From positions 1-38,634 of IMG/VR virus record IMGVR_UViG_3300035698_010181: a stretch of 38,634 nucleotides of DNA. One strand, written 5' to 3'. The stretch comes from a virus. Both the position numbers and the translations under genes were made by a program. The number at the start of each line of letters is the position of its first letter. The first letter of the stretch is position 1. Below the pieces are notes generated by a model, which was given only the letters and a program-made list of their open reading frames with translations, was not told the DNA's origin and did not search any database. Shown here in pieces: positions 33,677-38,634 of the stretch.

Positions 33677-34182
33677 AGGTCATTGTCGTAGCAGGATACT
33701 TCAGAACCGGAAGTACTTGGTTGTTCAATCTCATAAAACATTCACTTTTAAGTGAAGGCTACACGGTCAGTCAGGCTGGAAATCATGAAATACCGCCACC
33801 GATAACGGACTTCCATATCATCAAGACCCATACATGGAGCCAAGACCTGTTTTGGAAATCAGACTACGTTTTCACATCGCACAGGGATTTAAATGAAATA
33901 AAGGCCAGTTACATTCGATTCACTGGAGTCGCCCTTGAAGGGCCAGAGGCCGAACAGTCATGGGCTGACTATCTACAATGGAATTCGTTCTCTAATTATG
34001 CAATGCCGTTCGGCATCATGGTTCAATGTCCATCAATTGTAGCCAATGCAGTAATTTATGCGTTGGGCCTGAAGTGTGACCCTAACGAAGTTCTGAAGAT
34101 TGTTTCCGAAATTAAGCCACCGAGCAAAGGTTACGACCCCGACTCGTTCTACTATTCAAACCATATAACCAAAAAACCATGA
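33673..34182 (+). CDS. sulfotransferase-like protein
   Basis: 169-aa protein starting with GTG at 33673 (GTGA overlap with the previous stop). The P-loop-like PAPS-binding motif GYFRTGSTWL is at residues 8-17; KTHTW (51-55) follows at the usual distance; R71 and S79 in SHRDLNEIKASYIR match the 3'-phosphate-binding signature. It should transfer sulfate from PAPS to a sugar or small acceptor. At 169 aa it is short for the family (usually 250-300 aa), so the acceptor domain is reduced. It is coupled to the glycosyltransferase gene by ATGA. Confidence 0.75.
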   Translation: MKVIVVAGYFRTGSTWLFNLIKHSLLSEGYTVSQAGNHEIPPPITDFHIIKTHTWSQDLFWKSDYVFTSHRDLNEIKASYIRFTGVALEGPEAEQSWADYLQWNSFSNYAMPFGIMVQCPSIVANAVIYALGLKCDPNEVLKIVSEIKPPSKGYDPDSFYYSNHITKKP

Positions 34183-35171
34183 ATCTCGTACACATCACAC
34201 TATTGCCTATGTTCCTAGGAGGAGGAGAACGCTTGGGTCACAATTGGGTAAACCATTCAAAGCACCAAAGCCTACATTATAGCGGGGCTGGCGGAATGAA
34301 GTACACGGACGATGATCGGTTCCTGACGTTCAACCAAGAACAAGACCTTGAACAAATCATCGACAAGCATTCAGAGGACGTGATTGTCACGCATGATGCT
34401 GAAATCATTTACAATCCTGTTCTTCAGAAGGTCAAGAGATTGATTTGGTTCGTGCACGGAGCCTTTACATTCGGACTCGATATCAGTGCCTGCGTAAAGC
34501 CAAAGTTCGTGTTCAGCAATTACCTTCCTGAGAAGACTCATCCCAGCTGGAAAGGTGTCGCGATATTTCCCGTTCGGCTTGGCGTTGATCTGGAACATTA
34601 CCGTGCACCAGAAACAGTTGTCCAGCAAGGCAATCGAATTCAGGTAGGAATCGTTGGTCGACTCAGTGATGAGAAACTGCCTATTCAATGGTTTTCCTTC
34701 GCTCAGAAGTTCCGGCAACGATCGTTTTCCAAACAGTTTGAGTTTAAAGTCTACGGGGCCGGAATGCCTGATACGCCAGTCCATGACATGATTATGCGTG
34801 AGATTGGAAGGAATCCGTTAATCACGTACATGGGGGCCATCGACAAAGACAAGGTTCACGAGGTTTACCAAGGGCTTGATATGCTTATGGTACCGAGCAT
34901 GACAGAAACTGGATCGTACGCGATTGTTGAATCTCAATGTACGGGTGTTCCGGTAGTGGCTTTGTCCAAGGACGGGATCCCTGATCACCTCACGAACTTC
35001 AGCTACGGAGTACCGGGATATCACCAGATGTTCTTGTTACTGGCAAATCTGCGACATCGGTTATCTATTGAGGCCAGACATGAAAATTCTAAATCGGCCA
35101 AGGCCCTGTTTGACGTTAGGCGCTGGGCTTGGCAGCTTGACTGTCTGGTTGAGTCTTTGAGAAGGATTTGA
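34179..35171 (+). CDS. GT4-like glycosyltransferase
   Basis: 330-aa GT-B-fold enzyme. The N-terminus HITLLPMFLGGGERLG has the acceptor-side Gly loop; GRLSDEKLP (160-168) and VYGAGM are the usual start of the donor domain; ETGSYAIVE (243-251) is the E-x7-E nucleotide-sugar motif of family 4 retaining enzymes. It should add a hexose from a nucleotide sugar to a glycan or lipid carrier. Pairing with the sulfotransferase-like gene points to building a sulfated glycan; the acceptor is unknown. Confidence 0.83.
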   Translation: MNLVHITLLPMFLGGGERLGHNWVNHSKHQSLHYSGAGGMKYTDDDRFLTFNQEQDLEQIIDKHSEDVIVTHDAEIIYNPVLQKVKRLIWFVHGAFTFGLDISACVKPKFVFSNYLPEKTHPSWKGVAIFPVRLGVDLEHYRAPETVVQQGNRIQVGIVGRLSDEKLPIQWFSFAQKFRQRSFSKQFEFKVYGAGMPDTPVHDMIMREIGRNPLITYMGAIDKDKVHEVYQGLDMLMVPSMTETGSYAIVESQCTGVPVVALSKDGIPDHLTNFSYGVPGYHQMFLLLANLRHRLSIEARHENSKSAKALFDVRRWAWQLDCLVESLRRI

Positions 35172-35663: not shown

Positions 35664-36146
35664 TCACGCGTGCAGTTTCTCATTGTAAACCCTCCATCCT
35701 CTATCGGTCTTGATATAATCAACCGACTGACCGAATACCTGACGGATTACAATCGTTCCTATCGGATGACGGTTTCTGGTCTTGGCCGGTCGATATTGCT
35801 TCTTGGTCCGAATAATACCATGCATGCCTCTCGCCCCTTTTATCTGCGCCATTGTCTTTCCCATCTTGGCAGCAATTTCTTTGTCCGTGTGCTGATCAAC
35901 GTTGTCACGGATGAAGTTCAGTTCCTTTGGCTTCCATCTGGCATGTTTGGCCCTGATCTCAAGGTTGTCGATTTCGCAGTTTAGTAGGCTGTGGTCCAGG
36001 TGATGGACGTAGTACCCGTCTGGAATATCACCGTTTTCTATCTGCCAATTGAAGTGATCGAGCCGCTTAAGGCCCTTCTTGGTTACGATGTACGGACGAA
36101 CTTCGCCCCGAACTTTTAGGGTACTAATTGAGAATAGGTCTGCCAT
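35664..36146 (-). CDS. HNH endonuclease with DNA-binding tail
   Basis: 160-aa protein. YYVHHLDHSLLNCEIDNLEI (46-65) is the HNH core: the His pair 48-49, D51-H52, N56 and N61 as in phage HNH homing endonucleases. Residues 70-112 (LNFIRDNVDQHTDKEIAAKMG) form a Myb/SANT-like DNA-binding helix set. The C-terminal part is basic. It is a free-standing endonuclease, likely a homing type or a packaging accessory; the first is favoured because terL is far away. TAATG overlap with the 52-aa ORF upstream. Confidence 0.85.
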   Translation of the reverse strand: MADLFSISTLKVRGEVRPYIVTKKGLKRLDHFNWQIENGDIPDGYYVHHLDHSLLNCEIDNLEIRAKHARWKPKELNFIRDNVDQHTDKEIAAKMGKTMAQIKGARGMHGIIRTKKQYRPAKTRNRHPIGTIVIRQVFGQSVDYIKTDRGWRVYNEKLHA

Positions 36147-36304
36147 TACTTGGTTTTTTGGGTTTCATTTAACTTTTTGACGGCCTGTGCCATCTTTTGA
36201 TTTACGTCCGCCATTGTTGTGGCGAGGAGGCCGAACTTCTTGTGAAGAAGGTCTATTCCCAGCTTCAGGTGAGTGAGTTCTTTTCGTGTCAATTTTCTGT
36301 CCAT
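36146..36304 (-). CDS. 52-aa helical ORF
   Basis: Short protein starting ATG at 36304 and ending TAA overlapping the HNH start (TAATG). It is basic and helical (LTRKELTHLKLGIDLLHKKF), with a likely coiled coil. It overlaps the last 16 bp of the C5-methyltransferase gene. Tight packing supports it as real; function unknown. Confidence 0.5.
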   Translation of the reverse strand: MDRKLTRKELTHLKLGIDLLHKKFGLLATTMADVNQKMAQAVKKLNETQKTK

Positions 36305-37392
36305 CCTAGATTTTTGCTCATTTGTTTCCAGAGGGTTCTGTATGCGAGTTCCGCAGCATCTGGTACCACGGCATTTCCGTATAATCGAAGAAGGTCTTCT
36401 CGATAGTTGTACCCATTAACTGAGCTACCCAGCTTGGGTTCAATTGCACGCGGGTGTTCCCATCGGTGTTGGGGCCATCCTGGACGGGCGACCGAAGTTC
36501 CTCGACCAAAGCGCATAGATATTCCTTCTCCATCATGTGGTCGTGTGACTTGCTTCCCCTCGGCCCCGACCCTTTGTACTCGCTCGATCTCGGTGTCGGC
36601 CATTGCTTCATCACCGCTTGCGGAAGGGTCACGGAATGCATGCTCCCCTCTTTCTGCTGGGTGCTGTTTAGATTTGCCGTGTGAGTGTCGGACACTGTCG
36701 CTGTCGGCCAGTTCTTTTGATGCACCCGAGTATTCAGGGCCGTTCCCCCTTGGGGATAAGACTCCTCTCTCGGATGGACATCGTTGCAGGTAGGTGTAGT
36801 CCAATGCAAGAATGAAGACCCTGTTTCGCTTGTGGGGTATTCTGCGCTCAACGTATCTGGAAACGATTTCACTGCTTTCAAGAGCGAACTCTTCTCTTTG
36901 GCCTCGGACAACTTGCTCCGCTCCAAAGATTCCGACCTCAACTGCGTAACCCATATCTCGTAGGCTTGCAAGAACGTACTGGAAAGTTCCCGATAAGTGT
37001 CCGTCAACGTTCTCGAAGAATCCGCAAACAGGGTTTGTTGCTTTGATAATTCGTTCAAAATGCGGCCAAAGGAATCGAGGATCGTTCCAGAGTCTTCGTT
37101 TACCTGCATTGGACTCTCCTTGGCACGGATATCCGCCAGTGATGAGGTGTAGTTTTCCGTGAAACTGCTCTGCTGGGAAGGTTCGAGCATCGAGCCAAAC
37201 AGGTGCGGGATCCAATAGACCCGATTCCATTTGTTTGACCATATTTTCAATGACAAAGGCTTCGATTTCCACAAAAGCAGAAATTCTGAGGTCTCGGCCA
37301 ATTGCTTGTTCAATGCCTCTTTCGAGTCCATGCGACCCTGTGCAAATTGAGAGTGTAGAGCATGGTTGTTTGGTATTATCCACATCTTTCAT
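36289..37392 (-). CDS. C5-cytosine DNA methyltransferase
   Basis: 367-aa enzyme that methylates cytosine at C5. Motif I LSICTGSHGLE (14-24), motif IV catalytic GGYPCQGES with C90, motif VI ENV (127-129), motif VIII RIPHKRNRVF (184-193) and motif X GNAVVP (339-344) are all present and in order. Residues 195-335, the target-recognition region, are rich in Arg, Gly and ADxxxxR-type repeats (ELADSDSVRHS, AMADTEIERVQ). The ATG at 37392 overlaps the previous stop (ATGA) and is preferred to a longer reading from 37470. A +1 frame spans almost all of the gene. Confidence 0.92.
   Translation of the reverse strand: MKDVDNTKQPCSTLSICTGSHGLERGIEQAIGRDLRISAFVEIEAFVIENMVKQMESGLLDPAPVWLDARTFPAEQFHGKLHLITGGYPCQGESNAGKRRLWNDPRFLWPHFERIIKATNPVCGFFENVDGHLSGTFQYVLASLRDMGYAVEVGIFGAEQVVRGQREEFALESSEIVSRYVERRIPHKRNRVFILALDYTYLQRCPSERGVLSPRGNGPEYSGASKELADSDSVRHSHGKSKQHPAERGEHAFRDPSASGDEAMADTEIERVQRVGAEGKQVTRPHDGEGISMRFGRGTSVARPGWPQHRWEHPRAIEPKLGSSVNGYNYREDLLRLYGNAVVPDAAELAYRTLWKQMSKNLGWTEN
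36318..37385 (-). CDS. overlapping +1-frame gene inside the C5-methyltransferase gene
   Basis: 355-codon frame, ATG 7 bp behind the methyltransferase ATG, ending 29 bp before its stop. Its own sequence is not random: repeated W-T/P-TP segments (WTTPTCND at 195-202, WPTATVSD at 226-233, WPTPRSSEYKGSGPRGSK from 262), STQQKEGSMHSV, and LNPSWVAQLMG at 315-325. These match a phage family I recall with the WPTP and LNPxWVExLMG signatures. The N-terminal half is Ser/Leu-rich and low in known motifs. Function unknown. If real, about 1,068 bp encode two proteins. Confidence 0.6.
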   Translation of the reverse strand: MWIIPNNHALHSQFAQGRMDSKEALNKQLAETSEFLLLWKSKPLSLKIWSNKWNRVYWIPHLFGSMLEPSQQSSFTENYTSSLADIRAKESPMQVNEDSGTILDSFGRILNELSKQQTLFADSSRTLTDTYRELSSTFLQAYEIWVTQLRSESLERSKLSEAKEKSSLLKAVKSFPDTLSAEYPTSETGSSFLHWTTPTCNDVHPREESYPQGGTALNTRVHQKNWPTATVSDTHTANLNSTQQKEGSMHSVTLPQAVMKQWPTPRSSEYKGSGPRGSKSHDHMMEKEYLCALVEELRSPVQDGPNTDGNTRVQLNPSWVAQLMGTTIEKTFFDYTEMPWYQMLRNSHTEPSGNK

Positions 37393-37745
37393 TTCGTAAG
37401 GAGATGGTTTCGGTACTCCCCTGCTGTAGCGATTGTCATTGGAACAACCATAATACCGAGGCTTTCGCATAGCTTGACCTCGGCCATCATGCCGTTCGAA
37501 ATGCAGTCACCGTAAAGCCGAATCTCGTCAACGAATCCAAGTTTAAGCAAATGGTTGTCGTTCCTGATTCCGCGTTCCCGTTCTTTGGGTACCGAGTCGT
37601 CCAGGCAGACACAATCAAGATAATACGGGCAGAATGGCAATGTGTTCGGCTCGGTCAGGTTGATGTGTCGTACAACGGTTTGTAGTTTCCGGAGGTTGCC
37701 CTCAACGTCCCCTCCAACGGGGTGTGCGATATACGCTACTTTCAT
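37389..37745 (-). CDS. nucleoside 2-deoxyribosyltransferase-like protein (DUF4406/DUF7768 type)
   Basis: 118-aa protein. VAYIAHPVGGDVEGNLRKLQ at the N-terminus, FCPYYLDCVCLDD in the middle, and NGMMAEVKLCESLGI towards the end follow the deoxyribosyltransferase-like fold: a Gly-rich loop, the D/Y region and the G-M-x-x-E catalytic-type motif. The role in phage, moving deoxyribose between bases or binding a nucleotide, is not certain. The frame can start at a TTG inside the promoter (37769), so the ATG at 37745 is used. It is coupled to the methyltransferase (ATGA). Confidence 0.75.
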   Translation of the reverse strand: MKVAYIAHPVGGDVEGNLRKLQTVVRHINLTEPNTLPFCPYYLDCVCLDDSVPKERERGIRNDNHLLKLGFVDEIRLYGDCISNGMMAEVKLCESLGIMVVPMTIATAGEYRNHLLTK

Positions 37746-37766
37746 AAGATTGATTTTTTGGTACGG

Positions 37767-37774
37767 CAAACATA
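37767..37774 (-). promoter_or_regulatory. Bacteroidota-type promoter, -7 box TATGTTTG
   Basis: TATGTTTG on the minus strand, 21 bp ahead of the ATG at 37745. The box and leader (GCCGTACC, CAAAAAATCAATCTTATG) are nearly identical to those at 7517 and 11788. It drives the operon 37745-35664 and probably 35603. Confidence 0.75.
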
Positions 37775-38007: not shown

Positions 38008-38634
38008 TCAGTCTTTGACGTCATACTCTGGCAGGTTCATAAGATCTCGAAGCATTTCAACGTTCCAGACGGCCATAGACTTGTCTCGATAATGGCCCTC
38101 GGCTTCCGTGCATTGCTCGATAAAAATGTGATTCGGGAAAGGCATATTGAAAGGCGGTCGCTGCAGGTTTATGGGTCGCCATTTGCCAACCTCGATATCG
38201 GTGTTACCGTCTGTCCTGTTCGGGAAGGTGGTAATTCCTACCCATTTGGCGCCAGACCTGACGATGTTCTGGATTGCTTCTAGTACCTGTTCGTTCGGCA
38301 GATGATTGAGGCAGTCTCGTACCATCAATAAGTCGCAGTCCGGGATCGGATCTTTGGTGATGTCAAGAACCCGAAACCCCAGATTCGTTGGCTTCGGATT
38401 AGCTGTTTCAATCAACCGAACGATATTATCGTTAATCAATTCGGGAACTATGTCGCAGCCAACGTATCGTTTAACGGCACTGACTAATAGAGTTTGCCAA
38501 GTCATATCCCCGCATGGACAATCGACAATTGATTGAATGTTTTCCTTTACGATAAACCAGCCCAAGTATTGAACGAGCGTCTCCGCCTGTTCTATTTCTG
38601 AGCCCGAACCGCTGGAACTCTCTTTGCTTTTCCA
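38008..38634 (-). CDS. class I SAM-dependent methyltransferase (5' part outside the window)
   Basis: 208 residues visible; the frame is open to the right edge, so the start is missing. It opens with WKSKESSSGSGSEIEQ, a familiar beginning of this family, then the SAM-binding motif IVDCPCGDMTW, YVGCDIVPELI, the acidic LDITKDPIPDCDLLMVRDCL, and NIVRSGAKWVGITTF. The C-terminal part has KWRPINLQRPPF and DKSMAVWN. A TTG-initiated start at 38565 would remove the substrate-loop and is rejected. The substrate is probably a sugar or small molecule, not DNA (no DNA-methyltransferase motifs). Confidence 0.82.
   Translation of the reverse strand, partial: WKSKESSSGSGSEIEQAETLVQYLGWFIVKENIQSIVDCPCGDMTWQTLLVSAVKRYVGCDIVPELINDNIVRLIETANPKPTNLGFRVLDITKDPIPDCDLLMVRDCLNHLPNEQVLEAIQNIVRSGAKWVGITTFPNRTDGNTDIEVGKWRPINLQRPPFNMPFPNHIFIEQCTEAEGHYRDKSMAVWNVEMLRDLMNLPEYDVKD

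Follow-up and report, generated by a model that had tools for sequence, protein, structure and literature searches.

Main

C5-methyltransferases are built from two parts: motifs I–VIII and X form the SAM-binding and catalytic domain, and the target-recognition domain (TRD) together with motif IX forms a small domain that reads the DNA. M.AquI and M.EcoHK31I are exceptions that consist of two polypeptides, and complementation between fragments of C5-methyltransferases is on record (PMC3404938). In M.EcoHK31I (YGGCCR), the larger chain holds motifs I–VIII and X as well as the predicted TRD, and only motif IX lies on the smaller polypeptide; in M.AquI (CYCGRG), the split falls after motif VIII, ahead of the C-terminal motifs (PMC3404938). 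Another kind of hidden gene is the out-of-frame HNH endonuclease found within a methylase of phage ShiLan (PMC11855218).

The window analysed here, a stretch of 38,634 nucleotides of viral DNA, contains one kilobase of phage DNA in which, very probably, the two halves of one DNA-methylating enzyme are both encoded. Two open reading frames share it:

36289..37392, minus strand: frame-0 ORF, predicted catalytic chain of a C5-cytosine DNA methyltransferase, with motifs I–VIII and X
36318..37385, minus strand: +1 ORF of 355 aa, proposed target-recognition chain, with a helical N-terminal half, TRD and motif IX

Inside the C5-methyltransferase gene, the +1 frame thus runs for 355 codons with no stop, starting 7 bp behind the frame-0 ATG and ending 29 bp before the frame-0 end, precisely the offsets given in the original prediction. 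Among the other long ORFs of the window, the longest alternative open run on the same strand is 106 codons. The overlapping arrangement is common to well over 100 related phage genes.

We propose, at a probability of roughly 0.83, that these genes divide one DNA (cytosine-5) methyltransferase into two polypeptides, a catalytic chain from frame 0 and a recognition chain from the +1 frame. Frame 0 would yield motifs I–VIII and X joined by a disordered linker, and the +1 frame a helical N-terminal half followed by the TRD and motif IX. In the branch to which the window belongs, translation probably starts at overlapping codons, an ATG for the +1 chain and a GTG or upstream ATG for frame 0. We infer that both chains are translated and assemble into an active enzyme that would methylate the phage DNA and so probably protect it against host restriction. 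Whether such genes amount to a widespread class of phage enzymes, with domains in overlapping frames and overlapping starts, and with the choice of start setting the ratio of the chains, is a broader proposal to which we give even odds.

Proposed division of the enzyme between the frames

For the frame-0 protein, the family matches are Pfam DNA_methylase (3.4e-18) and phrog_363 (2.9e-35); the PCQ nucleophile and ENV are invariant among relatives. The features of this protein, with confidence values from an AF2 model, are as follows:

36793..37365, minus strand: catalytic fold, motifs I–VIII (frame-0 residues 10–200, pLDDT mostly 87–98)
36418..36750, minus strand: predicted disordered linker replacing the TRD (frame-0 residues 215–325, pLDDT about 42–52, briefly 67)
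36310..36405, minus strand: motif X, LLRLYGNAVVPDAAELAY (frame-0 residues 330–361, pLDDT 79–93)

Model confidence also drops in a short insertion near residues 165–190. Foldseek searches with this model found M.HaeIII and M.HhaI, in matches of about 200 columns that correspond to the catalytic domain. When compared with single-chain enzymes using hhalign, frame 0 aligned over motifs I–VIII with a probability of 99.9 and, at the single-chain C terminus, through motif X alone (E 5.6e-8); the TRD and motif IX, sought in frame 0 by the same comparison, gave no alignment. Constraint on frame 0 is weaker across the linker region.

The +1 protein divides into three parts:

36804..37385, minus strand: helical N-terminal half (+1 residues 1–194), read over motifs I–VIII
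36447..36803, minus strand: predicted TRD with WTTP/WPTA/WPTP blocks (+1 residues 195–313)
36390..36446, minus strand: motif IX, QLNPSWVAQLMGTTIEKTF (+1 residues 314–332), aligning with the motif IX of single-chain enzymes

It matches phrog_1008 (2.5e-10). Under its label 'DNA methyltransferase', this PHROG family brings together +1 proteins, second chains from split mycobacteriophage enzymes, and single-chain enzymes matched in their C-terminal halves. Aligned by hhalign to TRD plus motif IX, short +1 proteins reached a probability of 97 and window-type proteins 96 (E 3.5e-9), an assignment made with sequence profiles from few single-chain examples. Across 62–69 relatives, the pattern L-N-P-x-W-V-x-x-L-M-G is near-invariant. 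The WPTP/WTTP blocks and LNPSWVAQLMG, singled out from the start as signatures of the +1 protein, are indeed present in it and kept in relatives. They had been placed over the target-recognition part of the methyltransferase; the frame-0 stretch at that position is predicted to be disordered, and the recognition domain seems to reside in the +1 frame itself.

The N-terminal half of the +1 protein has no homologue in the single-chain enzymes and is perhaps the interface between the chains. A profile comparison found the +1 and frame-0 proteins to be unlike each other. The AF2 model of the +1 protein is poor (mean pLDDT 64, pTM 0.31), and a structure search of the PDB and BFVD with this low-confidence model returned no useful match; a profile search of the PDB with the +1 alignment gave chance-level matches only (cyclin E1 and a mitoribosomal protein). 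An independent regulator or defence protein was considered and set aside, the +1 protein having no significant family in Pfam, NCBIfam or PADLOC. A hidden HNH insertion, as in ShiLan, was likewise rejected: the +1 protein matches TRD plus motif IX, not a nuclease, and spans the length of the gene.

The partition of motifs recurs across loci. Among about 163 complete loci, none has motif IX in frame 0, and 145 have motif IX only in the +1 frame and motif X only in frame 0, as scored by regular expressions that missed several further loci which fit on reading. Motif IX is weakened in three loci (L111, L122 and L155). Motif X is read in the +1 frame in another three (L123, L138 and L143), one of which, L138, has no recognizable motif IX. 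In a Paraburkholderia locus (L180, 2394–3921), frame 0 stops just past motif VIII and the overlapping +1 frame carries the TRD, motif IX and motif X; in split actinobacteriophage genes such as Firecracker gp6/gp5, motif X also sits on the second chain. Such shifts of motif X from one chain to the other are expected if the two chains act as one enzyme.

The alternative that survives best, although we consider it unlikely, takes frame 0 as a complete enzyme in its own right and the overlapping +1 product as an accessory regulator or anti-defence protein. Frame 0 does keep motifs I–VIII and X, and the N-terminal half of the +1 protein is constrained yet without known homologue. This reading must nevertheless contend with the homology of the +1 C-terminal half to the TRD and motif IX of C5-methyltransferases, with the consistent absence of motif IX from frame 0, and with a frame-0 stretch at the TRD position that is predicted to be disordered and is less constrained. 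Because of this homology to the TRD and motif IX, the +1 protein is, on sequence grounds, most likely a subunit of the enzyme rather than a regulator or a separate anti-defence protein. Of the roles suggested in the original prediction, a protein that accompanies the enzyme comes close, and for the same reason regulation and countering host defence are unlikely.

Overlapping start codons and neighbouring genes

The two frames open within a few bases of each other:

37381..37392, minus strand: overlapping start region, with frame-0 ATG at 37392, +1 ATG at 37385 and frame-0 GTG at 37383, the latter two overlapping in an ATGTGG motif

A further in-frame ATG for frame 0 lies at 37470. Within the window's branch, 111 loci keep the start motif, 92 of them as ATGTGG, and as it was found by pattern, only its free positions, chiefly the bases of the +1 ATG, count as evidence. 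In ATGTGG, the ATG opens the +1 frame and the GTG, two bases later, opens frame 0; this GTG is the sole available frame-0 start in 60 of the 92 loci. Two proteobacterial relatives (L178 and L182) have ATGAATG in place of ATGTGG, and in the shorter type of +1 ORF the start lies inside the methyltransferase gene.

These starts bear on a second alternative, to which we assign a slightly smaller chance still, that programmed frameshifting into the +1 frame yields one fused chain with motifs I–VIII followed by the TRD and motif IX. This is exactly how the parts follow one another in single-chain relatives, and actinobacteriophages hold both split and single-chain forms. A frameshifted product would, however, make no use of the N-terminal half of the +1 frame, the whole of which is open and under selection; the +1 frame has its own conserved start codon; and in most loci a fusion into it would be without motif X. 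Such a fusion is a poor fit to the evidence from starts and selection, and two separately initiated chains remain our preferred reading.

Around the gene, an ORF with a DUF7768 match (37389–37769, minus strand, 1.8e-15) ends at a stop that overlaps the frame-0 ATG at 37392 as ATGA, which suggests that this ORF and frame 0 are translationally coupled. Shortly downstream of the methyltransferase is an ORF with an HNH_3 endonuclease domain (35664–36146, minus strand, 3.8e-8). The opposite strand carries a glycosyltransferase group 1 ORF (34179–35171, plus strand), and an ORF resembling class I methyltransferases (38008–38634, minus strand) is cut by the end of the window.

Openness of the +1 frame and selection on both frames

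The chance of an open run of this length had been put at (61/64)^355, a formula that ignores the composition dictated by frame 0. In 40,000 shuffles of the synonymous codons of frame 0, the +1 frame contained 7.24 ± 1.78 stops, with a minimum of 1, and zero stops never occurred.

The same holds among relatives. A first scan of viral contigs with the frame-0 protein alone as query gave no matches. A profile scan with the +1 alignment yielded 80 loci. These loci, like three phage records with annotation, combine a long +1 run with a frame-0 gene that is intact, and some lie on contigs of 32–35% GC. Over the open runs of 68 non-redundant loci, recruited by +1 similarity, shuffles predict 409 stops in the +1 frame and none is seen, whereas the +2 frame of the same loci matches chance (1305 stops versus 1295 expected). 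The check proposed at the outset, that homologues should keep both frames open, was thereby carried out and came out in favour of dual coding.

To offset the choice of loci by their +1 frame, a second scan recruited by frame 0 only, with a profile from dual-coding relatives. A +1 run of 167–628 codons was found in all 80 loci so recruited, which across the matched region contain 112 +1 stops against 490 expected. Because the frame-0 profile itself came from dual-coding relatives, ordinary enzymes were tested as a control: in 30 ordinary C5-methyltransferase genes, nearly all from Flavobacteriaceae, the +1 frame has 812 stops versus 763 expected, and in three single-chain actinophage enzymes +1 stops are at chance expectation. 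In two of the ordinary genes (L198 and L230), the +1 frame stays open for 189 and 165 codons, longer than in the other controls. A separate locus from a planctomycete (L179, 1131–2028, Blastopirellula MAG) has a truncated +1 run of 111 codons, and its second frame has possibly been lost.

For selection, isolated single differences in 67 independent pairs were classed by their effect in each frame. In the +1 frame, omega is 0.22 (0.20–0.26) by NN/NS and 0.40 (0.34–0.47) by SN/SS; in frame 0 it is 0.14 and 0.25, respectively. The control +2 frame, at 2.8 and 0.94, indicates no constraint. As far as motif VIII extends, constraint is stronger on frame 0, with omega in the N-terminal half of the +1 frame at 0.39/0.33. 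In the TRD part the balance is reversed, with values of 0.14 and 0.39 in the +1 frame versus 0.22 and 0.61 in frame 0. Purifying selection in both frames of a dual-coding gene pair is thus strongly supported, and the original impression that both frames are constrained is borne out by omega well below 1 in each as well as by the missing stops.

Many motifs of the +1 frame directly mirror conserved motifs of frame 0, so that some of the apparent conservation of the +1 frame is forced. A non-functional shadow, held open through biased codon use or because the methyltransferase protein is conserved, could draw on just this (WPTPT, for example, lies over VADAD), but it is refuted at the level of selection, by omega of about 0.2–0.4 in the +1 frame beside an unconstrained +2 control, and also by the absence of stops where shuffles preserving the frame-0 protein and codons expect 409 and by the ordinary methyltransferase genes, and we regard it as extremely improbable.

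Discussion

Few long overlaps on the same strand are known for which constraint on both frames has been demonstrated. Overlapping genes mostly encode unrelated proteins; the two frames of the window seem to specify domains of one enzyme that complement each other, and the dual-frame methyltransferases are numerous enough to put evolutionary questions to the test. Most annotations that we examined, among them two plasmid records, call frame 0 alone, and the recognition half of many phage methyltransferases would therefore be absent from databases, with specificity predictions for these enzymes resting on the wrong sequence. If our reading is true, single-frame, split, and partly and fully overlapping forms coexist in living phages, and the stepwise origin of a kilobase-long overlap could be traced.

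The phage systems closest to the window pair differ from it. The actinobacteriophage enzymes PFR2, Ramsey gp69 and Nimbo gp63 are single chains in the order motifs I–VIII, TRD with PTP blocks, a motif IX of the FVEWMMG type and motif X, all in frame past motif VIII; everything lies in one frame, with +1 stops at chance, whereas the window overlaps two frames. In the split methylases of the actinobacteriophages Firecracker (gp6/gp5) and Alma (gp83/gp82), the first chain carries motifs I–VIII and the second a TRD and motif IX homologous to the +1 protein but, unlike in the window, the overlap is short and motif X is on the second chain. Paenibacillus phage Sitara (g59/g60) has the two-frame arrangement seen here, labelled 'g59 internal gene' by its depositors, who proposed no function; its +1 ORF begins within the methyltransferase gene and not at the gene start. 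The hidden HNH gene of ShiLan is a mobile insertion encoding a homing nuclease and, unlike the +1 chain, not a part of the enzyme.

Among two-polypeptide enzymes, the smaller subunit of M.AquI comprises motifs IX and X, whereas in most loci here motif X remains in frame 0. M.EcoHK31I, by its published description, has motif IX apart from motifs I–VIII and X as in the window. A 1995 paper on M.EcoHK31I reportedly placed the smaller polypeptide in another frame within the larger gene. Two differences stand out: the predicted TRD of M.EcoHK31I is in the larger chain and the TRD homology of the window in the +1 chain, and the window's overlap covers nearly the whole gene, with overlapping starts in its branch. 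We do not place the window pair firmly in the M.EcoHK31I group, although as predicted from sequence its motif IX would lie on a polypeptide separate from motifs I–VIII and X, as the definition of that kind has it (PMC3404938). A literature search for such an overlap, with subscription papers mostly outside its reach, found nothing beyond the two-polypeptide enzymes and no paper treating the overlap as a class. The two-polypeptide kind of C5-methyltransferase is thus already known, and what appears to be new is an overlap that is near-total, opens at a shared start and is widely distributed among phages.
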